Assembly: GCA_905182255.1 (NCBI GenBank)
Contig: CAJJAH010000001.1
Span: 1-64,000, forward strand
Reading direction: 5' to 3'
Source of the DNA: Cryomorphaceae bacterium BACL11 MAG-121001-bin54
GTDB taxonomy: Bacteria; Bacteroidota; Bacteroidia; Flavobacteriales; BACL11
DNA length: 64,000 nt
Every line of letters begins with the position of its first letter. Positions within the stretch are counted from its first letter, which is position 1. Under the pieces are notes generated by a model. That model saw only the letters and a list, made by a program, of their open reading frames with translations. It was not told where the DNA came from and made no database searches. Shown here piece after piece: positions 13,684 through 25,032 of the stretch. A program made the translations under genes and the position numbers.

Positions 13684-14055
13684 TTAATCAAACTTTTTCA
13701 ATTGAAATTTTTTAATTTTTGGTTTTGAAAAATTAAGACTTTGACAACAATTAGGTAAAGCATTATGAGCACTCTCGTTTGCCATTACATCATCAGCATT
13801 ATAACCAAGATTTGAAATAATTGCGCGTATATTTTCAACTGAGTTCTTTTTCGTTTTAAAAGTAACTGTTAAAACTTGACTTTCTAACTCCAAATTTACT
13901 GCAGTAACTCCTTTTGTAAACTGCATTTCTTCTTCAATCCTATCTTTACAACAATTAGCAACACATTCTGCTGAAGTTTTAATTTGTACTGTTTCTTTTT
14001 GGGCCCAAGCATTTATAGTTAAAATACTAAATACGGCAATGAATATTTTTTTCAT
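13684..14055 (-). CDS. Secreted heavy-metal-associated (HMA-like) domain protein
   Basis: A periplasmic protein of 123 residues: signal peptide (about 1-18, ending NAWAQ), then one ferredoxin-like HMA domain (about 22-95). The metal loop reads SAECVANCCKDRIEEEM, so the usual G-M-T-C-x2-C is replaced by C-x3-C-C. The domain ends with the HMA-typical IRAIISNLGYNAD, and a second Cys pair LPNCCQS follows at 101-107. Last gene of a four-gene minus-strand operon with a TonB receptor 19 bases upstream. Likely binds a soft metal such as copper; the metal cannot be assigned from sequence. Confidence 0.82.
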   Translation of the reverse strand: MKKIFIAVFSILTINAWAQKETVQIKTSAECVANCCKDRIEEEMQFTKGVTAVNLELESQVLTVTFKTKKNSVENIRAIISNLGYNADDVMANESAHNALPNCCQSLNFSKPKIKKFQLKKFD

Positions 14056-14074
14056 GTTATTATTTATTTAATTA

Positions 14075-16282
14075 TTATTTAATTTTAAATCTAAATCCTG
14101 CATATATCATTCGTCCATTTATTGGCGCATAAATTAATGACGCATCAAAAGCTGAAGAAGTTGGTTTTCTGGAATCCAATATCGGATTATCCTGAGTATA
14201 GCCTAGTAAATTCTCTCCCCCAACATACACATCAAATTTCCGGAATTTCTTAGTTATCTGAGCATTATACAAGTAAAATGGATCTGAAAAATCATCAGAA
14301 ACACCTACTTTAACAGGAATTAGATTATGATTAGGAACCCTACTCTCACCTACATAATTAGCCGTAACATCGAACATCCATTTATCAAAATTAGTAGCAT
14401 AAGCAAAATTTAATAATGCTCTATCTTTTGGAGTAAGCGGAGTTTCTTTAATTCCCTCATCATCATAGGTGCTCTTTACATCATTTACCTTATAAGCCAT
14501 CTTTACATCAAAACGGTCAAACAACTCATAAGCAAAATCCAATTGCATACTCGTTGCATAGGATTCTCCTTCTAAATTATAAAATGATAACTCATTTTGA
14601 TTTTCAATATCAACCACAATTTGATTTTCAAAATCAGTATGGTAAGCATCTGCATTAATTGTACCTTCTCTTCCAAAAAGATAAAAACAATACGTAATGT
14701 TCGCTCCATAATTCCAAGCAATTTCAGGTTTTAAATTACCAACTGAAATCTCTCTGTTGGATGCTAAAAAAGAAGCATTTTCAACGATTACATTAGCTAC
14801 ACGAAAAGCTTTTCCAGCTGAAAAACGAATTGCCATTTTTTCTGTTGGATTGTATTTCATATTCAACCTTGGTAAATAATTTATTTCTTCAGAATTATTG
14901 TAATAATCTGCACGTATTCCAGATGTAAGATTAAAACTTTCACCCCATTTGTAAGAATACTCTGAAAAAAATCCTGTCATCAAATCTACTCTTACGTTAT
15001 TCTTAAAATCAGTATCAATATTACCCGCAACACTCTCGGTATATCTATCAGCATAATAACTTGAACCATATTTCAATTTATGGTTAGTACTACCAATATA
15101 AGTTTGTCTGATAAGGTTAAAATAAGCACTTTCCTGCAAACCTTTATATTCATTCTCTCCAAAAATAGCTTTTTGATTATGCCTTCTGAAAGAAGTTTGC
15201 AAACCGGCACTTTTACCTGGATTGTTTGGCTGAATAGCTCCTGTTTTTGATGTAAATTCTAATAAGTCATTATGAATATTAACATCATAAGGATTAAGCG
15301 TATTTTCAATAGTTCCTCCTAACCTATCTTCAACTAAACCTCTTACTGTAAAACCAATGTGATAATTATTATCCTTATATTCCCATCTATTAAGCACATT
15401 GAATTGAGTTACTTTTGGAAGATCTAAGAACCCATCCTTATTATTATCAAGCTCTTTATCAAAATAATTAACATGTGTAAAAAGATTACTCTTCCAAGCT
15501 CCATATTTTTTAGCAAACAATAAATTATTTTCTAGCTTTCCATGACCATTAGTATAACCATTCCAAAATAATTTAGGAGCTGATTCTGGCTTATAATATT
15601 CTAAATTAATCTGCCCGGCAAAGGATTCAAAACCATTCACAACTGAACCACTACCCTTTATAATCTGAATTGACTCTATCCAAGTACCGGGCACATAACT
15701 TAGACCATAAGCTGAGGAAATTCCTCTTATTAATGGCATGTTTTCTTGGGTTATCTGAGTATAAGCTCCATCCAAACCTAACATTTGAATTTTCCTAGCT
15801 CCCGAAACAGCATCAGTAAAATTAACATCAACTGTAGCGTTAGTACTAAAACTTTCAGAAAGATTACAACAGGCAGCCTTTTCTAGCTCTCCAGCTGAAA
15901 GGGTTTGCATATTAATAGAGTTAACTGTAGAAAACTTAGTTGTATTGATCTTCCCCTTCACGTTTACCTCTTTCAGTTCAAGGGATGGAGTGAGGTATAT
16001 CTGCAGGTAAGTATTAGCCTCTATAAGCTGAGTATATTGTTGATAGCCCACAAAACTCACAACTATAGTTGCAGGAAATACAGTTGGCTCAACAATCGAA
16101 AAATCTCCATCTCGAAGTGTACCAGCACCAATCGTAGTACCTTGCCAGTACACATTAGCTCCAGGAATTGGAACTTCTGAACCATCCTTAACTATTTCAA
16201 CAACTTTTCCCTTCAGGTAATCTTGTGCTTTTGTGTCAATATTTGCAATAAGCACTATCGCAATAATTATTATTTTTTGCAT
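14075..16282 (-). CDS. TonB-dependent receptor with carboxypeptidase-regulatory-like domain
   Basis: Outer-membrane active transporter of 735 residues. In order: signal peptide (1-19), CarboxypepD-reg-like domain (about 22-107), plug domain (about 120-230; SGARKIQMLGLDGAYTQ and IESIQIIKGSGSVVNGFES are plug signatures) and a beta-barrel ending GRMIYAGFRFKIK. No SusD partner follows, so it is not a SusCD glycan system. It sits between a Cys-rich HYC_CC_PP-like gene and an HMA gene, which points to metal import or a metal chelate as substrate; that is inference. The plug begins with an unusual CCNLSES segment. Confidence 0.93.
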   Translation of the reverse strand: MQKIIIIAIVLIANIDTKAQDYLKGKVVEIVKDGSEVPIPGANVYWQGTTIGAGTLRDGDFSIVEPTVFPATIVVSFVGYQQYTQLIEANTYLQIYLTPSLELKEVNVKGKINTTKFSTVNSINMQTLSAGELEKAACCNLSESFSTNATVDVNFTDAVSGARKIQMLGLDGAYTQITQENMPLIRGISSAYGLSYVPGTWIESIQIIKGSGSVVNGFESFAGQINLEYYKPESAPKLFWNGYTNGHGKLENNLLFAKKYGAWKSNLFTHVNYFDKELDNNKDGFLDLPKVTQFNVLNRWEYKDNNYHIGFTVRGLVEDRLGGTIENTLNPYDVNIHNDLLEFTSKTGAIQPNNPGKSAGLQTSFRRHNQKAIFGENEYKGLQESAYFNLIRQTYIGSTNHKLKYGSSYYADRYTESVAGNIDTDFKNNVRVDLMTGFFSEYSYKWGESFNLTSGIRADYYNNSEEINYLPRLNMKYNPTEKMAIRFSAGKAFRVANVIVENASFLASNREISVGNLKPEIAWNYGANITYCFYLFGREGTINADAYHTDFENQIVVDIENQNELSFYNLEGESYATSMQLDFAYELFDRFDVKMAYKVNDVKSTYDDEGIKETPLTPKDRALLNFAYATNFDKWMFDVTANYVGESRVPNHNLIPVKVGVSDDFSDPFYLYNAQITKKFRKFDVYVGGENLLGYTQDNPILDSRKPTSSAFDASLIYAPINGRMIYAGFRFKIK

Positions 16283-16325
16283 TTTTAACGTATAAAATTA
16301 AAACTCTAGTCAACAAGAGTTAATT

Positions 16326-16784
16326 CTATAGTAAAAATGACTGTATTTGAGCTAAATAAGGTTTATTAAGTTTTGGTGGTGGAATACCACTAAAATAATT
16401 ATTAGCTTTTGCAAAATACGATTTACTTCCATAAGAGGTCAATGAAGAAAATAAACTATTTTTTTTTGATAAATCAAGATCAAAAACAGTTAATATAGTT
16501 TCAAAATCATAATGAATATTTTGAGTACTACTTGCGCAGGATTTATCGTTAGTTTCAGTGCAACATGATTTGTTCACAACAATCATACAACAAGATATTT
16601 TCTCTTGCTCATCATTACAAATCAGTTCATTTTCCTCACTGCAAGAAGGCACTTGAGTGCCTAAGTATACAGTTCCAGCTTCATCACATTTCATTTTGGA
16701 AATATTAATTCCCATTGAAACAGACAGTATAAATACTGCCATTACAATAGAAAAAACTACTTGAAATATTTCCTTCAACCTCAT
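16326..16784 (-). CDS. Cys-rich HYC_CC_PP-like family protein
   Basis: A membrane-anchored or exported protein of 152 residues. After a hydrophobic N-terminal segment (about 8-28) come a KMKCDEAGTVYLG segment, a Cys-rich stretch with vicinal pairs SCCM and SCCT, and a C-terminal SGIPPPKLNKPYL. This layout (hydrophobic helix, xxC, CC, PP) fits the small Bacteroidota family called HYC_CC_PP, often found next to TonB receptors and HMA proteins; here the first motif reads KMKC rather than HYC. Probably metal-responsive or metal-binding, biochemical role unknown. The start is 1 base from the stop of the upstream T9SS gene, so co-translation is likely. Confidence 0.7.
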   Translation of the reverse strand: MRLKEIFQVVFSIVMAVFILSVSMGINISKMKCDEAGTVYLGTQVPSCSEENELICNDEQEKISCCMIVVNKSCCTETNDKSCASSTQNIHYDFETILTVFDLDLSKKNSLFSSLTSYGSKSYFAKANNYFSGIPPPKLNKPYLAQIQSFLL

Positions 16785-16785
16785 G

Positions 16786-18813
16786 TTAATTTTTTATAAA
16801 TTTAGATTTAACACCATCTACATCAATAATATAAACTCCATTATTCAATATACTAACATCAATAGCGTTGGTATTATTGTTTGTTGATAATATTAATTTA
16901 CCATTCAAATCAAATACTGATACAAGATTAGCTTCTGAAGTAAAATTTATGACATTTGATACTGGATTAGGATATAAACGGTTTCCACTTATAACCAATT
17001 GGTTTTCCTTAATAGCGGCAATAATAGTGGAAGGTTCAATTTTCACAACCTTATTTAAAGTTGCATTAGCATACCAAAGCTTTCCATTAGGACCAATTAC
17101 AGCACCCATAATTCCAGGCTCATTGGTTTGTATTCTACCAATTTCAATTGCAGGAATAGTATTTACATCATAAAAAACAATATCACCATTACTATGGTCA
17201 GTAACCACTAACCTATTATCAATAATATCAATTCCTGCAGGCTGAATTAAACCTGTTATTACTACTTCCTCCCAATCAAAAGCATTCATCTTTTGGTATG
17301 AAGCTAGAACTTCTTGTTGTAAAAATGAAGAAGGTGCAGGAATAGCAGTTCCAGTTGTAATATTTAATCGCAACACTCTTTGGTTACCGCCATCAACAAA
17401 ATATAGCCACTTTTTATCTTCATCTAACACTAAATGATTAACAATATCTTGGTTAATAGCACTAAGCCCCATACCTTGATATCTTATTAATTCTCCATCA
17501 TCATGATCAGAATTTCCAGGACCATGATCCTCTGCAAAATCATAACGAACTACATCATTACTATAATCATCATAAACCCAAAAAATATTGTCTTTTTCAG
17601 AAGCAATTCCCATGGAGTATGGACTTGCATGTAACATATCTAAATGAGACCCATTAGTTCCAGGCCCTGCATCTTTAGCATAAATTAAAGGGTCTGAGGA
17701 CCATAATGTAGGACCCGTAAATTGATTTCCACCATGATTAGCATCTAAGACAGAAGTTGAAGTTGCAAAATTACCATTATCACTAAATGCAATTCCTGAA
17801 GGCAAAGACATAAAGTGCCATGCATTTCCATCTTGTTCCCAAAGTGAGTTCTGAGAAGATAATGCAGGATTTGTCACTTTTACCGTACTACCTCCTGAGT
17901 TTTCAGTTCCAGTATTTGTAATCCATAAGTCTCCATTAGGATGAAAATCTAAATCTCTAGGATGATCAATTTGATTACTAGCGTTTACTATAACATCATA
18001 TGTAAAAGTGTTATTAAGTGATGTGTAAGAAGGAATAATATTTGGAATAGGATCCTTTACATTAATTGTTTTTATTAAATTGTCATTAGATGGCACTGCA
18101 TCTACACCTTGCCCATTAATATTGGAAATCCATAACTCAACAGTATAAGTTCCAGTAGAAGATGGTGTCCATACTGTAGGATGAATAAAATCATATGATG
18201 TAAGAGCATAAATACTTAACCCAGATAGATTCTGATTAACAATAGCACCACCATTAATTGTGTAGCTAACGTCCATAGAATTAATAGTGTTAGATCCTAG
18301 ATTTTTAATTTTTGCTTCTAAATTAATGTTCCCCGCTAAAATATAAGATGGAGTTTTAATTTCCAGCATCGCCCCATCAATTGGAGCAGGAGGAACTACT
18401 GAGAAAGTAAATGTTTCATTAAATGAAGATGCAGAAAAATTGTACATAGGCCAAGAACCAATATTAGTAACAAAAGTAGCACCTCCATCACCATAACTAT
18501 CACGAGATATAATATCATAACTAGCACCATCTACTAAGCACCAAGGACCTTCAAAAATTACAGTATTATTAGCATAACCTCCAGAATTTACGTTGTTAGC
18601 ATTACAACCAACATTATTATTACCTCCAATAAAAAGTGAAGCAGAACTACCACAATTAGTACCTGTAGGGGCTAACTCCCAATAAACTTCAAACCCCCAA
18701 TTATCTGTACTTACATCAATGGTAACTTCAGTCTGCCCTGTAGGACATTGAGCAAAAGTAAAAAGGGATATCATTGATAATGCTAGAGTCAAATAGAATT
18801 TATTTATTTTCAT
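16786..18813 (-). CDS. T9SS type A sorting-domain protein with propeller-like repeats
   Basis: Secreted protein of about 675 residues. Signal peptide KINKFYLTLALSMISLFTFA, a CARDB-like Ig segment (around residues 160-260), an NHL/SMP30-like propeller region (DLDFHPNGDLWITNTG, LVVTDHSNGDIVFYD, GPNGKLWYANATLNKVVK), then a T9SS C-terminal domain beginning NRLYPNPVSNVINF and ending with GVYIIDVDGVKSKFIKN. The CTD targets it to the cell surface through type IX secretion. I place the start at ATG 18813, not 18843: a TATTTTTG box at 18830-18837 lies between them and the shorter form gives a standard signal. First gene of the putative metal operon; ligand unknown. Confidence 0.88.
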   Translation of the reverse strand: MKINKFYLTLALSMISLFTFAQCPTGQTEVTIDVSTDNWGFEVYWELAPTGTNCGSSASLFIGGNNNVGCNANNVNSGGYANNTVIFEGPWCLVDGASYDIISRDSYGDGGATFVTNIGSWPMYNFSASSFNETFTFSVVPPAPIDGAMLEIKTPSYILAGNINLEAKIKNLGSNTINSMDVSYTINGGAIVNQNLSGLSIYALTSYDFIHPTVWTPSSTGTYTVELWISNINGQGVDAVPSNDNLIKTINVKDPIPNIIPSYTSLNNTFTYDVIVNASNQIDHPRDLDFHPNGDLWITNTGTENSGGSTVKVTNPALSSQNSLWEQDGNAWHFMSLPSGIAFSDNGNFATSTSVLDANHGGNQFTGPTLWSSDPLIYAKDAGPGTNGSHLDMLHASPYSMGIASEKDNIFWVYDDYSNDVVRYDFAEDHGPGNSDHDDGELIRYQGMGLSAINQDIVNHLVLDEDKKWLYFVDGGNQRVLRLNITTGTAIPAPSSFLQQEVLASYQKMNAFDWEEVVITGLIQPAGIDIIDNRLVVTDHSNGDIVFYDVNTIPAIEIGRIQTNEPGIMGAVIGPNGKLWYANATLNKVVKIEPSTIIAAIKENQLVISGNRLYPNPVSNVINFTSEANLVSVFDLNGKLILSTNNNTNAIDVSILNNGVYIIDVDGVKSKFIKN

Positions 18814-18829
18814 ATATTTTAATTTTCTA

Positions 18830-18837
18830 CAAAAATA
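18830..18837 (-). promoter_or_regulatory. Bacteroidota -7 box for the T9SS/TonB operon
   Basis: The minus strand reads TATTTTTG, an exact TAnnTTTG match, 17 bases before the chosen ATG at 18813. It falls inside the longer alternative frame, which argues against the upstream start. Confidence 0.45.
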
Positions 18838-18886
18838 TAACAATATGCATCATATTTATCTTTTTTAAACAATAAAAAGTTAGCTC

Positions 18887-19495
18887 TTATTCGTTCATCT
18901 TATTAAATACTGAAAATAAAAAGCTCTGATACGTTCCAAATGGAGTTGGATGATCATATATAAAGGAACTTACTACACTAAAATTAACAGAGAAAAAAGC
19001 ATGCATTTCCTTCTTATCATAACTGCAAACCTCCAATCCACTACATTTACTTGGCCCATAATTTGAAAAAGTAGCTAAAATAAAATAACTATCAACAGCA
19101 GAATTCAATAATTCACGATAGTTTTCTTTATCTTTTTGTTTGGTTAAGAAATGAAACACTGCCCTATCGTGCCAAATAGCATATTCTTGCTTAGGAACAA
19201 ATTCAGTAATATCAGCAACTATCCATTTTACTTTTTCAGCTAACTTTCCTAATCGTTTTATGGCTCTATCAATTGCATTTTTGGAAATATCTAAAACTGT
19301 AATATTCGTATACCCTGATTCAAGTAAATTATCAACCAAAAATCCATCACCACCTCCAATATCAATAATTGCTTCCTGCTTATTTTTAGCAACTTGATTA
19401 ATTAATTCTAAAGAAGTTGTAGGGACTTTTTGAAACCAACTTACTTCTTGCATGCCTTTAGTTGCATATATATTTTCCCAATGCTCCTTACCCAT
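18887..19495 (-). CDS. Class I SAM-dependent methyltransferase
   Basis: Rossmann-fold methyltransferase of 202 residues. Motif I IDIGGGDGFLVDNLL near residues 44-58 binds SAM, the acidic end of strand 2 is VLDISKNAIDRA, and WIVADITEF follows. The opening GKEHWENIYATKGMQEVSWFQ resembles thiopurine/small-molecule methyltransferase-like proteins. Substrate unknown. It is the last gene of a tight operon with persulfide-dioxygenase-like and rhodanese genes (3-base gap), so a sulfur or thiol acceptor is a reasonable guess but not shown. Several Cys residues lie in the C-terminal half (SKCSGLEVCSYD). Confidence 0.87.
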   Translation of the reverse strand: MGKEHWENIYATKGMQEVSWFQKVPTTSLELINQVAKNKQEAIIDIGGGDGFLVDNLLESGYTNITVLDISKNAIDRAIKRLGKLAEKVKWIVADITEFVPKQEYAIWHDRAVFHFLTKQKDKENYRELLNSAVDSYFILATFSNYGPSKCSGLEVCSYDKKEMHAFFSVNFSVVSSFIYDHPTPFGTYQSFLFSVFNKMNE

Positions 19496-19498
19496 ATT

Positions 19499-20902
19499 TT
19501 ATAAAGTTGTAGGACAAATAAAATCAGTTAAAGGAATAGCTGTTTCTTTAATAGCACCAAAGCCTCCCTCAACATTAATGACGTTGTTAATTCCTTGTTT
19601 TTTTAGCAATGAACCAGCAATAACTGATCGATAACCTGCTGCACAGTGCACAAAGTTTTCATTTATTGTAGTAAATTTATCGTGCTGCTTATCCAAGTTA
19701 CCTAAAGGAGCCAACTGAGCACCGCTAATATGCTGACTATTGTATTCGCTAGCTTTACGTACATCAACAATATGAATAGCATTATTTTTCTTATAAATGC
19801 TTGCAAAATTTTCAGATGAAATAGATTGCATAGTGTCTAAGTCATTTACATCCCAAGCATTAATACCACCCTGCAAATGTCCAAGTATATTATCAAAACC
19901 AACACGTGATAATCGAGTAGCTGTTTCTTGTAACCTATCCTTATCACATACCAATAAAATTGATATATCAACAGTTTTAATAATAGCCCCTACCCAAGGA
20001 GCAAAACCTCCATCAATTCCAATAAAAATAGAATTTGGAATAAAACCTTTTACAAATTCTTTTTGATGACGAACATCTAAAATAATTGTATTTTTATTTG
20101 ATAAATTTTTTTTAAAATCCGATAAAGCAAGAGGCTTTAAAGCTCTTTTAATAACCATATCAACAGACGAAGGTCCTTGAATATTCAACCTAACATTTTC
20201 AGAAAAATAAGCTGGTGGAGGTAAAATCCCATCCAATAATTCATCTATAAACTCTTGCTTAGTCATATCAGAACGCAAAGCATAATTAGTCGCTTTCTCA
20301 TGCCCAATTGTTCCTACAGTTTCCATACTCATTTTTTTTCCACAAGCCGAACCAGCTCCATGCCCAGGATAAACAATTACATCATCAGATAATGAGATTA
20401 TTTTTGTTCTCAAGCTATCAAATAAATTTTCTGCTAAATCTTGCTTAGTTAGTTCTGAATTCTGTGCTAAATCAGGCCTACCTACATCTCCTAAAAATAA
20501 GGTGTCTCCTGTAAAAATAGCTTTATTTTCTCCTTGTTCATCACTTAATAAATAACAAGAACTTTCCATAGTGTGCCCTGGTGTATGCAAGACTTTAATG
20601 CTTATATTTCCTATTTCAAATATTTGATTATCTTTAGCAATAATAGCTTCAAAATCAGTTTTTGCTGTAGGCCCAAATACAATTTGAGCACCTGTTTGTT
20701 TTGCCAAGCTAAGATGTCCGCCCACAAAATCTGCATGAAAATGCGTTTCAAAAACATATTTAATTTTAGCTCCTCTTTCTGACGCCATTTCAATATATGA
20801 ATCCACTTCTCGTAAAGGATCAATTATAGCAGCCTGGCCATTACTTTCAATATAATAAGCACCCTGCGATAAACAATTCGTATAAATCTGTTGTACCTTC
20901 AT
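19499..20902 (-). CDS. MBL-fold hydrolase with two rhodanese domains (persulfide dioxygenase-like)
   Basis: About 467 residues. The N-terminal metallo-beta-lactamase domain resembles ETHE1/persulfide dioxygenase: THFHADFVGGH metal motif, LLHTPGHTMESSCYL-like segment, FTGDTLFLGDVGRPD, and YPGHGAGSACG. ETHE1-type enzymes oxidise glutathione persulfide; in this bacillithiol-type organism the thiol may differ. Two rhodanese domains follow: the first has VCDKDRLQET in the active-loop position (probably weak), the second has an intact HCAAGYRS loop. Start taken at ATG 20902 (KVQQIYTN...), directly after the upstream rhodanese stop; an upstream ATG at 20935 would overlap that gene. Probable role: sulfide/persulfide detoxification. 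Confidence 0.9.
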   Translation of the reverse strand: MKVQQIYTNCLSQGAYYIESNGQAAIIDPLREVDSYIEMASERGAKIKYVFETHFHADFVGGHLSLAKQTGAQIVFGPTAKTDFEAIIAKDNQIFEIGNISIKVLHTPGHTMESSCYLLSDEQGENKAIFTGDTLFLGDVGRPDLAQNSELTKQDLAENLFDSLRTKIISLSDDVIVYPGHGAGSACGKKMSMETVGTIGHEKATNYALRSDMTKQEFIDELLDGILPPPAYFSENVRLNIQGPSSVDMVIKRALKPLALSDFKKNLSNKNTIILDVRHQKEFVKGFIPNSIFIGIDGGFAPWVGAIIKTVDISILLVCDKDRLQETATRLSRVGFDNILGHLQGGINAWDVNDLDTMQSISSENFASIYKKNNAIHIVDVRKASEYNSQHISGAQLAPLGNLDKQHDKFTTINENFVHCAAGYRSVIAGSLLKKQGINNVINVEGGFGAIKETAIPLTDFICPTTL

Positions 20903-20904
20903 TT

Positions 20905-21180
20905 TTATTTTTTCTGGGAAGCAACCATTTCCCAACCTCCTCCATTATGCACATCATTACAACCCTGAGCTTGCAAAAAATCTGTAGCTTGACCACTTCT
21001 TCCTCCAGAAAGACAACATAAAACTAAAGGCTGCATTGCTTTTAACTCCATGATTCTATCAACTACTTCATTCAAAGGAATATTTATAGAACCATTTACA
21101 TTCCCTTCTAAAAATTCTGCTTCTGTTCTTACATCCACAATAGTGACCGCCTTGTCATTAATTAATTCTTGTATATTCAT
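20905..21180 (-). CDS. Single-domain rhodanese
   Basis: A stand-alone rhodanese of 91 residues. VDVRTEAEFLEGNVNGSINIPL is the CH2A motif and VLCCLSGGRSGQATDFL the active-site loop, with Cys followed by the anion-binding loop. The family carries persulfide sulfur between thiols. Cytoplasmic (no signal). Sits between the histidine kinase gene (1-base overlap) and the MBL-rhodanese gene (2-base gap), so it probably acts with the latter in reactive-sulfur metabolism. The extra Cys before the catalytic one is unusual. Confidence 0.93.
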   Translation of the reverse strand: MNIQELINDKAVTIVDVRTEAEFLEGNVNGSINIPLNEVVDRIMELKAMQPLVLCCLSGGRSGQATDFLQAQGCNDVHNGGGWEMVASQKK

Positions 21181-22421
21181 TATTTATTTTTAAAAATTAT
21201 TTTAAATTGATGTTCACTAATATAACTATAAGTAATTTTAAAAGTATATAACTCACAAATCCTCTGAACAATTGAAAGTCCTATACCTAGATTTTTTTTG
21301 CTATTCTCACTTCTAATAAATCTTTTAAATATGTCCTTTTCAGGGAATGAAAGTGGAGATCCACTATTAGAGAAAGTCAAAACATTATTACTTAAGTGAA
21401 CACGCAGAACACCTCCACGTGCATTATGTATAATAGAATTTTTAATTAGGTTAATAATTAAAGTTTCAGCCAAATAAGGGTTCATGTAAATATGAGTAAT
21501 CTCAAACAAATCTATTTCTAACTTCAAATCTTTTTCTTTAATTGGAACATCAAAAATTTGTAATTTTTCTTTAATTAAATCATTTAAGGAAAAGGTGGCT
21601 TCTTGAGTATAAAAACGATTATCTATTTTAGTGAGAAAAATAAGTGCCTGATTTATTTTTGATAATCTATTAGTCGTTTCCAAAAGTAGAGCTAATTGCT
21701 CCATCTGTTCTTTAGAAAGATTTTCGCCTTGCATTAGCTCATCTGCTTTAGAACTTATAATTGCTAGAGGAGTTTGTAATTCATGAGATACATTTTCAGT
21801 ATATTCCTTCTGTGCTTCAAAATCATTATAAATTTGTGTAGCCATTTTTTCAAACACTTCATTTAGTTTTTTTATTTCCTGAACTTCAGCTGCTTCAAGT
21901 GATAAAGATTGAATTTTACTAAGCTCAAAATCTTCTAACTTACGGATAGTACTATAAAAAACACTAAGTGCACTTTTGATAGAATGCCTATTTACAAAAA
22001 ACATAATTAAAAAAAATAACATAGCAAAACCAACATTCATAATTACTATTTTTTTAATTAGTAAATCACTGTGACTTTGGTTTTTCAAAATACTTATAAT
22101 GTAATATTGTTCGTTAACCAAATAAGAAAATGTTAGTTTTCGATAAAGTATGTACGAATTATTTACAATTAGAACAGTGTCTGAAAAGGAATATCCTATA
22201 TCCTTGTCAGTGATTTGAATAAACACTAATTTTGACTTTAAGTCATTAAGTTTATTTTTATCAGCATTAAAAAAAAACTCTTTTTTTTCTTGTAACAGTC
22301 GTTTCTGAAGATCCTCGGCAATAATGTTACGTACTGAAAAATACATAGCTACACTTCCAAGAAGAAAGAAAATAACTGAAGCTGAGATAAAATTAAGTGA
22401 AGTTTTAGTTAATAATTTCAT
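21180..22421 (-). CDS. Sensor histidine kinase
   Basis: Two-component kinase of 413 residues. Transmembrane helices near residues 10-30 and 123-143 bracket a periplasmic sensor loop of about 90 residues. A linker leads to the HisKA domain with phosphoacceptor H213 in VSHELQTPLAI, then HATPase: N-box NLIKNSIIHNARGG, a degenerate G1-like FSNSGSPLS, and G2 NLGIGLSIVQRI. No classical PAS domain is seen. Overlaps the response regulator by 4 bases and the rhodanese by 1 base. The periplasmic ligand is unknown, but the operon suggests a sulfur or redox signal. Confidence 0.95.
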   Translation of the reverse strand: MKLLTKTSLNFISASVIFFLLGSVAMYFSVRNIIAEDLQKRLLQEKKEFFFNADKNKLNDLKSKLVFIQITDKDIGYSFSDTVLIVNNSYILYRKLTFSYLVNEQYYIISILKNQSHSDLLIKKIVIMNVGFAMLFFLIMFFVNRHSIKSALSVFYSTIRKLEDFELSKIQSLSLEAAEVQEIKKLNEVFEKMATQIYNDFEAQKEYTENVSHELQTPLAIISSKADELMQGENLSKEQMEQLALLLETTNRLSKINQALIFLTKIDNRFYTQEATFSLNDLIKEKLQIFDVPIKEKDLKLEIDLFEITHIYMNPYLAETLIINLIKNSIIHNARGGVLRVHLSNNVLTFSNSGSPLSFPEKDIFKRFIRSENSKKNLGIGLSIVQRICELYTFKITYSYISEHQFKIIFKNK

Positions 22422-23107
22422 TCTAAAGTAAATTTATAACCTACTCCATAAATATTTTTGATATAGTCATTGCCTCCATTATTTGCAATTTTCTTTTTTA
22501 AATTTTTAATGTGCGTATAAACTACATCATCACTAAAACCATAATCATCATAGCTAGATGACATAAACTCCCCTAAAGTAGTTTTAGAAATCACTCTGTT
22601 AGGGTTGGAAAAAAAATATAAAAGCAAACCAAACTCTTTTCCTGTCAGCTCTACCATTTCGCCATGAATCATTGTGCGCATTTCTTCAGGAAATAAAGTT
22701 ATTTCATTAATAGTTAACTGCCTATTTTCTTCTAAGTTCAATCTTCTTATGACTGACTTTAAACGAGCATTCAATTCTGAAAAAAAGAAGGGCTTAGTTA
22801 AATAATCATCCGCTCCTAATTCTAAGCCTTGTACTTTATTTTCCAAAGCATCTTTTGCAGAAACAATAATCAAGCCAATTTCAATTTTAGTATTTTTTAT
22901 TTCTTTTATCAAGGACATCCCATCCCCATCAGGCAAACCTAAATCTAAAAGTACGGCAGTAAATTTTTCTTGTTTTAATAACTTTCTAGCCGATTTTAAA
23001 TTTTTAGCATGAAAGGGTGAAAACCCATTCTTTGATAAAGAAGAAATAGTTGATCTAGCTAATTCCAATTCATCCTCAACTAATAATATATTATGTTTTT
23101 TAAGCAT
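22418..23107 (-). CDS. Response regulator, OmpR/PhoB family
   Basis: DNA-binding regulator of 229 residues. Receiver domain (about 5-118): acidic pair near 11-12, phosphoacceptor D55 in AVLLDLGLPDGDG, and the conserved Lys in DYLTKPFFFSEL. A winged-helix trans_reg_C domain follows (about 130-225; ELTGKEFGLLLYFFSN, DVVYTHIKNLKKKIA, IKNIYGVGYKFTLE). Partner of the overlapping histidine kinase. Because it lies in the same operon as the sulfur-handling genes it probably controls that operon. Confidence 0.96.
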   Translation of the reverse strand: MLKKHNILLVEDELELARSTISSLSKNGFSPFHAKNLKSARKLLKQEKFTAVLLDLGLPDGDGMSLIKEIKNTKIEIGLIIVSAKDALENKVQGLELGADDYLTKPFFFSELNARLKSVIRRLNLEENRQLTINEITLFPEEMRTMIHGEMVELTGKEFGLLLYFFSNPNRVISKTTLGEFMSSSYDDYGFSDDVVYTHIKNLKKKIANNGGNDYIKNIYGVGYKFTLE

Positions 23108-23543
23108 TGCGAAACATGTTCATAGAAATTGAAATAAAAATAAGTACAAAGGATAGACCGAAATACAAGAAGTTTTTTTTAAACTTCTTCATATCATCTT
23201 TTAAATTTTTAGCATATACTAATCCTAAATGACCAAATATTATAGCAAATAACATAAGTATGGCATGCTCAACTGCCCAAAAACGAGCTGAAAAATACGC
23301 ATTAGCATTTGCCTGAGTTATTAGGAACTCTAATTTATTAATGTAAATTGCATATAGCAAAACTCCTAAAATAAGTTCTAAATACAAAAAAATAACTGCA
23401 ATAATTGGCAACTTTATGTCTTGAAATACAGAAAAATTAACTTTCCCGAATAACCCAAATACAGAACGCATTACTATATAAACCGATAATAAAATTAGTA
23501 AAATACTAATAACAATATGTGAAATAAGGATAGCCGAATACAT
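23100..23543 (-). CDS. Four-helix membrane protein, cytochrome-b-like family
   Basis: Integral membrane protein of 147 residues with four predicted helices (about 5-30, 47-68, 88-110, 123-142). The size, and the His residues in helix 1 (ISHIVISILL) and helix 3 (VEHAILMLFAIIFGHLG), match a Bacteroidota family loosely annotated as cytochrome b; whether haem is bound cannot be decided. It overlaps the response regulator start by 8 bases and opens the six-gene operon, so it may provide a membrane sensing or redox component. Confidence 0.65.
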   Translation of the reverse strand: MYSAILISHIVISILLILLSVYIVMRSVFGLFGKVNFSVFQDIKLPIIAVIFLYLELILGVLLYAIYINKLEFLITQANANAYFSARFWAVEHAILMLFAIIFGHLGLVYAKNLKDDMKKFKKNFLYFGLSFVLIFISISMNMFRNA

Positions 23544-23576
23544 AATGTAAAAATACGAAAGAAAATGGTTATTTAA

Positions 23577-23807
23577 TTATTCAACCAAAAAGCCTTTGTG
23601 AGGCTTTAAAGTTTGCCGTAAGGTATCTACCAACTCTTTTTGAACAATCATAAAAGCTATTGAAGTAAATTCTGTTTGCTTTTCTGTCCCAAACTCCATA
23701 ACATCAACTTTCTCTATCTCACAAAAATATTTTAAATGTAGAACGTGATGTTCAGCAATTTTTAATGACCCTTCACCACTAAAAGTCCATACCAATTTAG
23801 CTTTCAT
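23577..23807 (-). CDS. Conserved small protein of unknown function
   Basis: Seventy-six residues, soluble, no signal and no recognisable domain. Contains a central IAEHHVLHLKYFCEIEKVDVMEFG stretch with clustered His/Cys and ends with LRQTLKPHKGFLVE. Its ATG lies 14 bases after the stop of rocD on the same strand, suggesting co-transcription. The coding potential looks real (plausible amphipathic pattern, base use like its neighbours), but I cannot assign a function. Confidence 0.6.
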   Translation of the reverse strand: MKAKLVWTFSGEGSLKIAEHHVLHLKYFCEIEKVDVMEFGTEKQTEFTSIAFMIVQKELVDTLRQTLKPHKGFLVE

Positions 23808-23820
23808 ACAATATATATTT

Positions 23821-25032
23821 TTAAAAAGAAAGAATGGTTTTCTTAATGATACGGATACATATCATTAATTGCTCTTCAGTAATTACCAAAGGAGGGGCAA
23901 AACGAATGATATTTCCATGAGTTGGTTTTGCCAATAACCCGTTATCTCTTAATTTTAAACATACATCCCATGCTTCTTTTCCATTTTTAGGCTTTATCAC
24001 AATAGCATTAAGTAAACCTTTACCTCTCACTAGAGTTATCATGTCGTTATTAAAATCTCGGAGTTCTCTTCTAAATATTTTTCCTAATCGATATGCATTT
24101 TCAGCAAGTTTTTCATCCAAAACCACTTCAAGTGCAGCCTGAGCTACCTTACAAGCAAGAGGATTCCCTCCAAAAGTAGATCCGTGCTCTCCAGGCTGAA
24201 TACAAAGCATAATTTCATCATCTGCTAATACAGCAGATACTGGGAAAACTCCCCCAGAAATAGCTTTACCAAGAATTAACAAATCTGGGCGGGCATCTTC
24301 ATAGTCACAGGCGAGCATCTTACCTGTACGGGCAATACCAGTTTGAACTTCATCAGCAATAAATAAAACATTATATTTATCACACAATTTCCTAACACCC
24401 TGCAGATATCCTTCATCAGGTACAACTACTCCAGCTTCACCTTGAATTGGTTCAACCATAAAAGCGCAAACATTAAAATCTTTAAGTTCAGTTTCTAGGG
24501 CTTCAAGATCGTTATATGGAATTAAATCATATCCAGGCATAAAAGGACCAAAACCTTCGTAAGAAGAAGGATCGTCAGAACTAGAAATTGCAGCAAGTGT
24601 TCTCCCCCAAAAATTTCCTTTAGCAAAAATAATTCTAGCTTTATTTTTTTCAATTCCCTTTTTTATATAACCCCATTTTCGAGCTAATTTATTAGCAGTC
24701 TCACCTCCTTCAACTCCAGTATTCATAGGTAAAACCTTATCATAGCCAAAAAGTTTTGTTACAAATTCTTCATACTTTCCTAATACATCATTATGGAATG
24801 CTCTAGAAGTAAGCGTTAAAGTATCAGCTTGTTCTTTAAGTGCTTCTACAATTTTTGGATGGCAATGACCCTGGTTTACTGCTGAGTAAGAAGAAAGAAA
24901 ATCATAATATTTTTTACCCTCTACATCCCATACAAAAACACCTTCTCCCTTTGCCAAAACGACTGGAAGTGGGTGATAATTGTGTGCTCCATACTTATCT
25001 TCTAATTCTATATATTCTGCTGATGTTTTCAT
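23821..25032 (-). CDS. rocD: Ornithine--oxo-acid transaminase
   Basis: Class III PLP aminotransferase of 403 residues. Converts ornithine and 2-oxoglutarate to glutamate-5-semialdehyde and glutamate, linking arginine and proline metabolism. Diagnostic: the N-terminal [16 protein letters not shown] typical of ornithine aminotransferase, [34 protein letters not shown] and the PLP-lysine loop [11 protein letters not shown]. Full length. A divergent promoter region (25033-25094) separates it from rlmD; a TATATTTG box faces rocD at 25053-25060. Confidence 0.96.

Follow-up and report, generated by a model that had tools for sequence, protein, structure and literature searches.

Results

Gene content of the locus

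We analyzed positions 1-64,000 of contig CAJJAH010000001.1 (assembly GCA_905182255.1), and this whole stretch of 64,000 nucleotides is hereafter called the window; it belongs to the genome of Cryomorphaceae bacterium BACL11 MAG-121001-bin54 (Bacteroidota), which is 53% complete and comprises 1.04 Mb in 7 contigs. The subject of the study is a block of four open reading frames (ORFs), all present on the minus strand between 13684 and 18813, which encode a secreted protein with a putative propeller (PROP), a Cys-rich protein resembling the HYC_CC_PP family (HYC), a TonB-dependent receptor (TBDR) and a protein with a single HMA domain (HMA). The genes are separated by 1 (PROP/HYC), 43 (HYC/TBDR) and 19 (TBDR/HMA) bases, and a TAnnTTTG box stands upstream of them at 18830-18837, in agreement with the original prediction, made from the sequence alone, of four same-strand genes with gaps of about 1-43 bases behind one such box. 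The same prediction treated them as a four-gene module; the genes and their order are real, but they form the end of a longer run of 12 genes on that strand (13684-25032, minus). Bit scores are given against the stated family cut-offs, and our own handles denote comparison genomes (G) and loci (L). The features are as follows.

18830..18837, minus strand: TAnnTTTG promoter-like box (TATTTTTG), 24 bases before the PROP ATG, at a conserved position
16786..18813, minus strand: PROP, predicted to be secreted by the type IX secretion system (T9SS), with a sorting tail at the C-terminus and, at about residues 262-597, an NHL/SGL-like propeller region (PF18962, TIGR04183, NHL and SGL scores)
16326..16784, minus strand: HYC, Cys-rich, HYC_CC_PP-like, predicted exported protein (NF047658, 25.5 bits; alignment)
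14075..16282, minus strand: TBDR, TonB-dependent receptor with a CarboxypepD_reg-like domain, plug and barrel (PF00593, PF13715 and PF07715 above cut-off)
15866..15871, minus strand: codons of Cys138-Cys139 in the conserved KAACCNLSESF motif at the plug start of TBDR (alignments)
13684..14055, minus strand: HMA, predicted exported single HMA-domain protein (PF00403) with CC at the C-terminus (read in the sequence)
13948..13965, minus strand: putative metal loop of HMA, C-V-A-N-C-C, that is CxxxCC for CxxC (alignment)

The proposed T9SS-targeted propeller protein held in its first part: the PROP tail scores 43.0 bits for PF18962 (cut-off 27) and 37.2 bits for TIGR04183, a sorting domain such as type A cargo has. 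The propeller part is a weak match (NHL, 20.2 bits against 20; SGL, 21.0 against 26.3), and an AlphaFold2 model built from six sequences had a mean predicted local distance difference test (pLDDT) of 36.8, too low for a fold search; the sequence thus points weakly to a propeller fold, which we treat as putative. SprA_N, when searched for in the host genome at its 53% completeness, gave no match, and it is present in 7 of the 9 other genomes of the genus that were searched. HYC was aptly described as Cys-rich and HYC_CC_PP-like, since it reaches 25.5 bits, just below the NF047658 cut-off of 28, and keeps the CC and PP(P) motifs, with KMKC replacing HYC; a 55% identical homolog in G049 (locus L070) scores 28.1 bits. 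TBDR passes the cut-offs of PF07715 (33.6 bits), PF00593 (91.9 bits) and PF13715, and stays far under that of SusC/RagA (TIGR04056; 50.6 against 368.25 bits). A structure model of the receptor (mean pLDDT 60.2, plug region poor) retrieved many TonB receptors at similar scores in Foldseek, Cir first and OprC second, and because so many score alike, this comparison picks no ligand. HMA matches PF00403 at 31.5 bits (cut-off 24.8) and carries CVANCC, the C-x3-C-C loop noted at the outset; it scores 33.7 bits for MerP (TIGR02052), with the cut-off of 92.55 unmet, and also scores for copper chaperones, below the CopZ cut-off.

Promoter box and transcription unit

TAnnTTTG occurs 52 and 62 times on the two strands of the window, hence a lone box is little proof of a promoter. 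Of seven genes checked for a box in the preceding 150 bases, PROP alone has one, at 18830-18837. We compared its position among 14 related loci (window included), all with the same upstream methyltransferase gene; the comparison was designed only after the box had been noticed, and the loci are kin, so they do not count as independent events. In 13 of the 14 loci, the box lies at most 110 bases ahead of the gene that opens the block, be that gene PROP or, where PROP is missing, HYC, and the box precedes other genes of the run in 2 of 66 cases (trio genes behind the first plus three upstream genes, in 14 loci, the trio being HYC, TBDR and HMA). The fourteenth locus (L022), counted as a miss, has its box at a greater distance, ahead of a stretch of 42 codons left over from the PROP tail. 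The conserved position argues that the block probably has its own promoter, and the placement of the box in loci with and without PROP suggests that PROP has its place behind the promoter of the trio and ahead of HYC. In line with what had been predicted, PROP, HYC, TBDR and HMA thus probably form one transcription unit. The likely start of PROP is the ATG at 18813 and not the listed TTG at 18843, as the latter would place the box inside the ORF.

Receptor, HYC and HMA across Bacteroidota

The receptor was matched at 1e-80 in 42 of the 52 genomes of the window's family and at 1e-90 in 48 of 148 phylum genomes, where it occupies 55 places; 40 of these were analyzed, the rest being the window, L047, L048 and 12 places that scored no more than 385 bits, six of which are second copies. 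The 33 best-scoring of the 40 loci carry the CC motif, which is partly expected of a profile built from CC receptors; the same does not apply to the counts of neighbors. HYC-like genes, defined as short, Cys-rich, same-strand upstream ORFs with CC and recognized by a local profile or by PP near the end, accompany 26 of the 33 CC loci, HMA genes 21, either of them 28 and both 19, and none of the seven receptor loci without CC has an HYC-like or HMA neighbor. HYC_CC_PP homologs above the cut-off precede the same receptor family in L081, L085, L099 and L070. Moreover, plasmids of Parabacteroides distasonis and Bernardetia hold a gene for a small hypothetical protein, the receptor gene and then an HMA gene, while a Haliscomenobacter plasmid holds the receptor gene with no annotated adjacent HMA gene, and a CusA/CzcA gene downstream, past a second receptor. 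By this distribution, we regard HYC-TBDR-HMA as an old Bacteroidota module.

The CC of the receptor had been called unusual and placed before the plug. Cys138-Cys139 are indeed there, but in an alignment to a solved receptor they fall where the plug motif starts, and as all 18 aligned relatives (18 of 18) have the pair and it recurs in the best-scoring phylum loci, we dropped the notion of an unusual feature in favor of a signature of this receptor family. The segment at the plug start with the CC presumably faces the periplasm. Of the 16 family loci, counting the window, in which HMA accompanies the receptor, 12 have CxxxCC or CxxxxCC as the loop and the other four have CxxC; the HMA partners found phylum-wide (21 of 21) and in the order loci (7 of 8, the eighth giving no loop) have CxxC, and for this reason the extra cysteine is a change within the window's family. 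The receptors of L044, L048, L087, L093 and L104 (three phylum and two order loci) carry an HMA fusion at the N-terminus, with a double domain in L048 and L104. We consider the fusion strong evidence that HMA would work with the receptor on the periplasmic side, and it speaks for the predicted soft-metal role of the two proteins. The host genome, at its 53% completeness, yielded the window HMA gene as its sole HMA match, and thus no HMA-bearing CopA was seen there.

Several further observations concern the trio and its relatives. At L024:2765-8942 and L031:2436-8178, an HYC paralog is the first gene of a run that includes T9SS-tailed multicopper oxidases; the oxidase of L024 scores 372 bits for CueO, under the cut-off of 525, and the same run has cytochrome c and DUF5777 genes. 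The ORF at L024:5101-5730, for a time considered cupredoxin-like, was dropped as such when a domain scan showed a T9SS tail alone. At L081:4276-5055, a gene for an HMA-MauE membrane protein, a candidate inner-membrane partner, lies between HYC and the receptor. In seven genomes, the trio is followed by a protein of 254-262 residues that ends in a T9SS-like tail (L025:5719-6483, L026:9688-10470, L027:11981-12766, L028:5638-6426, L032:6047-6832, L033:5803-6588 and L070:8878-9657); its CxxC stretch is 'thioredoxin-like' by our motif label, and a scan of the L025 protein gave the T9SS tail alone. Directly upstream of related receptors without CC (L116, L118 and L119) is a gene whose product, about 270 residues long, has a T9SS-like tail by motif test.

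Distribution of PROP and its distant relatives

Full-length PROP was found in 9 of the 52 family genomes, namely in 6 of the 14 from the window's genus and in G049, G045 and G046; the copy in G010 ends at a contig edge. A search for the same gene order elsewhere, suggested with the original prediction, found PROP exactly 1 base before HYC in five genomes besides the window (G003, G005, G007, G008 and G049), and G049 belongs to another genus, where this junction is kept with an HYC only 55% identical. As first gene, the secreted protein had been singled out as the unexpected member, which it is, though it is no obligatory one, given its occurrence in the family and two copies away from the trio. 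In G022, a different T9SS protein takes its place, likewise 1 base before HYC, and the last 62 residues of that protein are 61% identical to the PROP tail; the 42-codon remnant in G011 (L022:2394-2595) lies between the methyltransferase gene and HYC, and G024 may, in our interpretation, hold a six-codon PROP scar. A secreted T9SS gene at the operon head thus probably predates the genus and was later lost or replaced. Even the 45% identical homolog of G048, which stands apart from the trio, retains His and Met residues of PROP (HFM, GSHLDMxHxSPxxMGI, HxxGxxDHxDG), and these would fit a metal site or an active site.

When searched with a propeller-region profile, 13 of 296 order genomes and 12 of 395 phylum genomes gave a match, the window being in both sets, and neighbors were inspected for 12 relatives outside the family (three from the order and nine of the 11 from the phylum, with G296 and G177 left out). 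Three of these 12 (G569, G464 and G192), from three other families and in differing gene orders, lie with HYC_CC_PP genes, and since such genes are uncommon per genome, we judge that this is unlikely to be chance. In G569, the relative (41% identity over 690 columns) belongs to a run with T9SS AhpC/ResA-like and T9SS BNR-like proteins, an HYC_CC_PP protein (76 bits), CusA/CzcA (766 bits against 701), an RND adaptor (129 against 95), a TolC-like protein and a weakly matched HMA-AraC gene; on its other side lies a Csp1-like four-helix protein (39.6 bits against 100; DUF326, 33 against 20.4). In G464, the relative (42% over 687) comes right after an HYC_CC_PP gene (58 bits), with no other gene of that strand in between. 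In G192, a propeller protein with 36% identity over 385 residues shares a same-strand run with HYC_CC_PP (42 bits), CusA (1102 bits), a cupredoxin (67.6 bits against 27), an outer-membrane efflux subunit (weak match) and an RND adaptor nearest to CusB (adaptor family, 126 bits against 95; CusB, 139 against 390). The recurrence of PROP relatives beside HYC_CC_PP, in two of three cases within CusA-type runs, points to copper.

A CusA-type run in another Bacteroidota family (L158:739-10829) combines HYC_CC_PP, efflux subunits, a cupredoxin and a propeller protein, and the T9SS-like tail domain of this propeller protein is internal and not C-terminal. Other propeller-domain proteins, of about 950-970 residues (L145, L146 and L149-L152), stand beside nuoJ/nuoK-like genes, NuoK being confirmed in L149; because several relatives have such neighbors, the propeller domain would have other uses too.

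Discussion

We favor, with somewhat better than even confidence, the reading that the four genes are transcribed together and serve to take up and handle a soft metal, most probably copper, aided by a secreted accessory protein. Its basis is the common orientation of the genes, the position of the promoter box, the linkage of the trio, the HMA-receptor fusions and the PROP relatives beside HYC and copper genes; from these we infer the metal, the direction of its movement, the parts played by PROP and HYC, and a thiol relay. The T9SS-tailed multicopper oxidases behind HYC paralogs (L024 and L031) and the HMA-MauE protein of L081 also speak for it. PROP, once secreted through the T9SS, would act at the cell surface, where it could bind copper, present it or alter its redox state. 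TBDR would carry the metal or a metal complex across the outer membrane, driven by TonB, after which the plug CC and the periplasmic HMA may relay the metal through thiol exchange, with HYC, rich in cysteine, as a possible buffer in the envelope. A more specific version is tentative and, to us, rather doubtful in its full form: PROP, perhaps copper-binding or oxidatively modified, would feed the receptor in a MopE/CorA-like manner, the plug CC would hand Cu(I) to a docked or fused HMA with its three-cysteine loop, the propeller-HYC pair would serve also in CusA-type efflux loci of other families, and T9SS partners would be swapped at the operon head.

A number of observations weigh against the uptake reading. 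The CxxxM/HxM copper site of OprC, searched for in the TBDR sequence, is absent. Five of the 33 CC loci have neither HYC nor HMA, and most trio loci lack PROP. In G045 and G046, PROP lies away from the trio, with an FAD (flavin adenine dinucleotide) oxidase on one side and a Cons_hypoth698 protein on the other (by a domain scan of G046), and its neighborhood in G046 also includes a dipeptidyl peptidase. Furthermore, the copper genes near PROP relatives are those of efflux and storage, not import; 9 of the 12 relatives, with few neighbors scanned, have no recognized metal genes beside them; and the MbnH-like di-heme fragment on the other side of the G569 run is a truncated gene seen in one locus.

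The main rival explanation is a copper-tolerance module, in which PROP, HYC and HMA would bind or oxidize excess envelope copper and the receptor would import a chelator or something required under that stress. It agrees with the CusA-type efflux runs that hold PROP relatives and either a Csp1-like gene (G569) or a cupredoxin gene (G192), with the T9SS multicopper oxidase after an HYC paralog and with the CusA/CzcA gene downstream of the two receptors on the Haliscomenobacter plasmid. TonB receptors, however, are importers, HMA is fused to the receptor in some loci, and the window run has no efflux pump in a genome where, at 53% completeness, no HMA-bearing CopA was seen; hence we consider tolerance a possible but rather unlikely function. 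The sporadic occurrence of PROP raises a different question, namely whether the trio imports a metal and PROP is an independent T9SS cargo gene that settled behind the trio promoter. Its presence in only nine family genomes, its unlinked position in G045 and G046, the remnant in G011 and the substitution in G022 by another T9SS gene with a related tail are what such a history would leave, but HYC_CC_PP again accompanies three of the 12 relatives outside the family, which come from three further families and have other gene orders, and the 1-base PROP/HYC junction is kept in G049, so that we think an independent cargo gene improbable. Alternatively, the ligand might be another soft metal (mercury, silver or cadmium), a thiol or a sulfur compound; the nearby rhodanese and metallo-hydrolase genes may hint at this. 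HMA scores for MerP as it does for copper chaperones, and a sulfur-type block precedes the trio in the window's genus; yet this block is missing from many trio loci of the family and is thus probably a later arrival, and the metal-specific neighbors found are copper or copper/silver genes, which makes a ligand of this kind very unlikely in our estimation.

The proposed copper uptake unit shares traits with several known systems. TonB receptors for copper include OprC, CrtA and MbnT (PMC12914433). The OprC type, to which the OprC-like protein of Bizionia argentinensis belongs (PMC11213822), is a TonB copper receptor, and the barrel model of TBDR resembles OprC among many TonB receptors; unlike OprC, TBDR has no CxxxM/HxM and has instead the CC at the plug start and HYC and HMA as partners. 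By its motifs, the window receptor belongs to a CC-marked group distinct from the OprC type. The CrtA/BfrG family likewise imports copper in a TonB-dependent manner, and is reported mostly from beta- and gamma-Proteobacteria, in a text from which the term HMA is absent (PMC12914433). MopE and CorA are surface or secreted proteins with di-heme peroxidase partners and a proposed part in copper acquisition (PMC3912023); the likeness of PROP to them is one of arrangement only (compare the di-heme fragment of G569), and a search of the PROP profile against solved chains (E-value up to 1) gave two matches, both in the T9SS tail and neither of them MopE or CorA. Cus-type copper/silver efflux loci are represented by G569 and G192, where PROP relatives and HYC_CC_PP occur in CusA-type runs, whereas the window run lacks CusA and has a TonB receptor and HMA instead. 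MerP and CopZ are small single-HMA proteins, as is the window HMA, which differs in scoring under both cut-offs and in having the CxxxCC loop and a C-terminal CC. HYC shares CC and PP with the HYC_CC_PP proteins (NF047658), and differs in its slightly lower score and its KMKC.

In the literature that we found, the passage of copper over the Bacteroidota outer membrane is poorly described. Our searches on HYC_CC_PP returned no paper, those on TonB receptors and copper returned nothing on the HYC-TBDR-HMA trio, one on TonB receptors with mercury and MerP in Bacteroidetes found no paper, and one joining type IX secretion to copper, multicopper oxidase and TonB found no paper. A receptor family with a fixed CC signature and a fused or adjacent HMA is a direct candidate for copper import in Bacteroidota, and the HYC_CC_PP family would gain a functional setting. 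Moreover, several families have a propeller protein next to HYC_CC_PP and copper genes, and a role of secreted T9SS cargo in metal handling thereby becomes testable.

Neighboring genes

The gene converging on the 3' end of the 12-gene run is one that we take, by eye and naming it without a search, to be methylmalonyl-CoA mutase. Upstream of the four genes, a block at 18887-23807 (minus strand) encodes a rhodanese, a metallo-hydrolase-rhodanese, a methyltransferase and two-component proteins, and is found in the window and in nearby genera; its upstream flank is presumably a rocD-like gene (our own label), HYC forming the other flank. The rhodanese block was dropped as a part of the module, because it is missing from many family genomes and their trio loci. 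A sensor kinase of the run (21180-22421, minus strand) resembles the PorY family of T9SS regulators (343 bits; cut-off 350) and adjoins an OmpR-type regulator (22418-23107, minus strand), so that a PorY-like kinase and the T9SS cargo gene PROP are found in one run.

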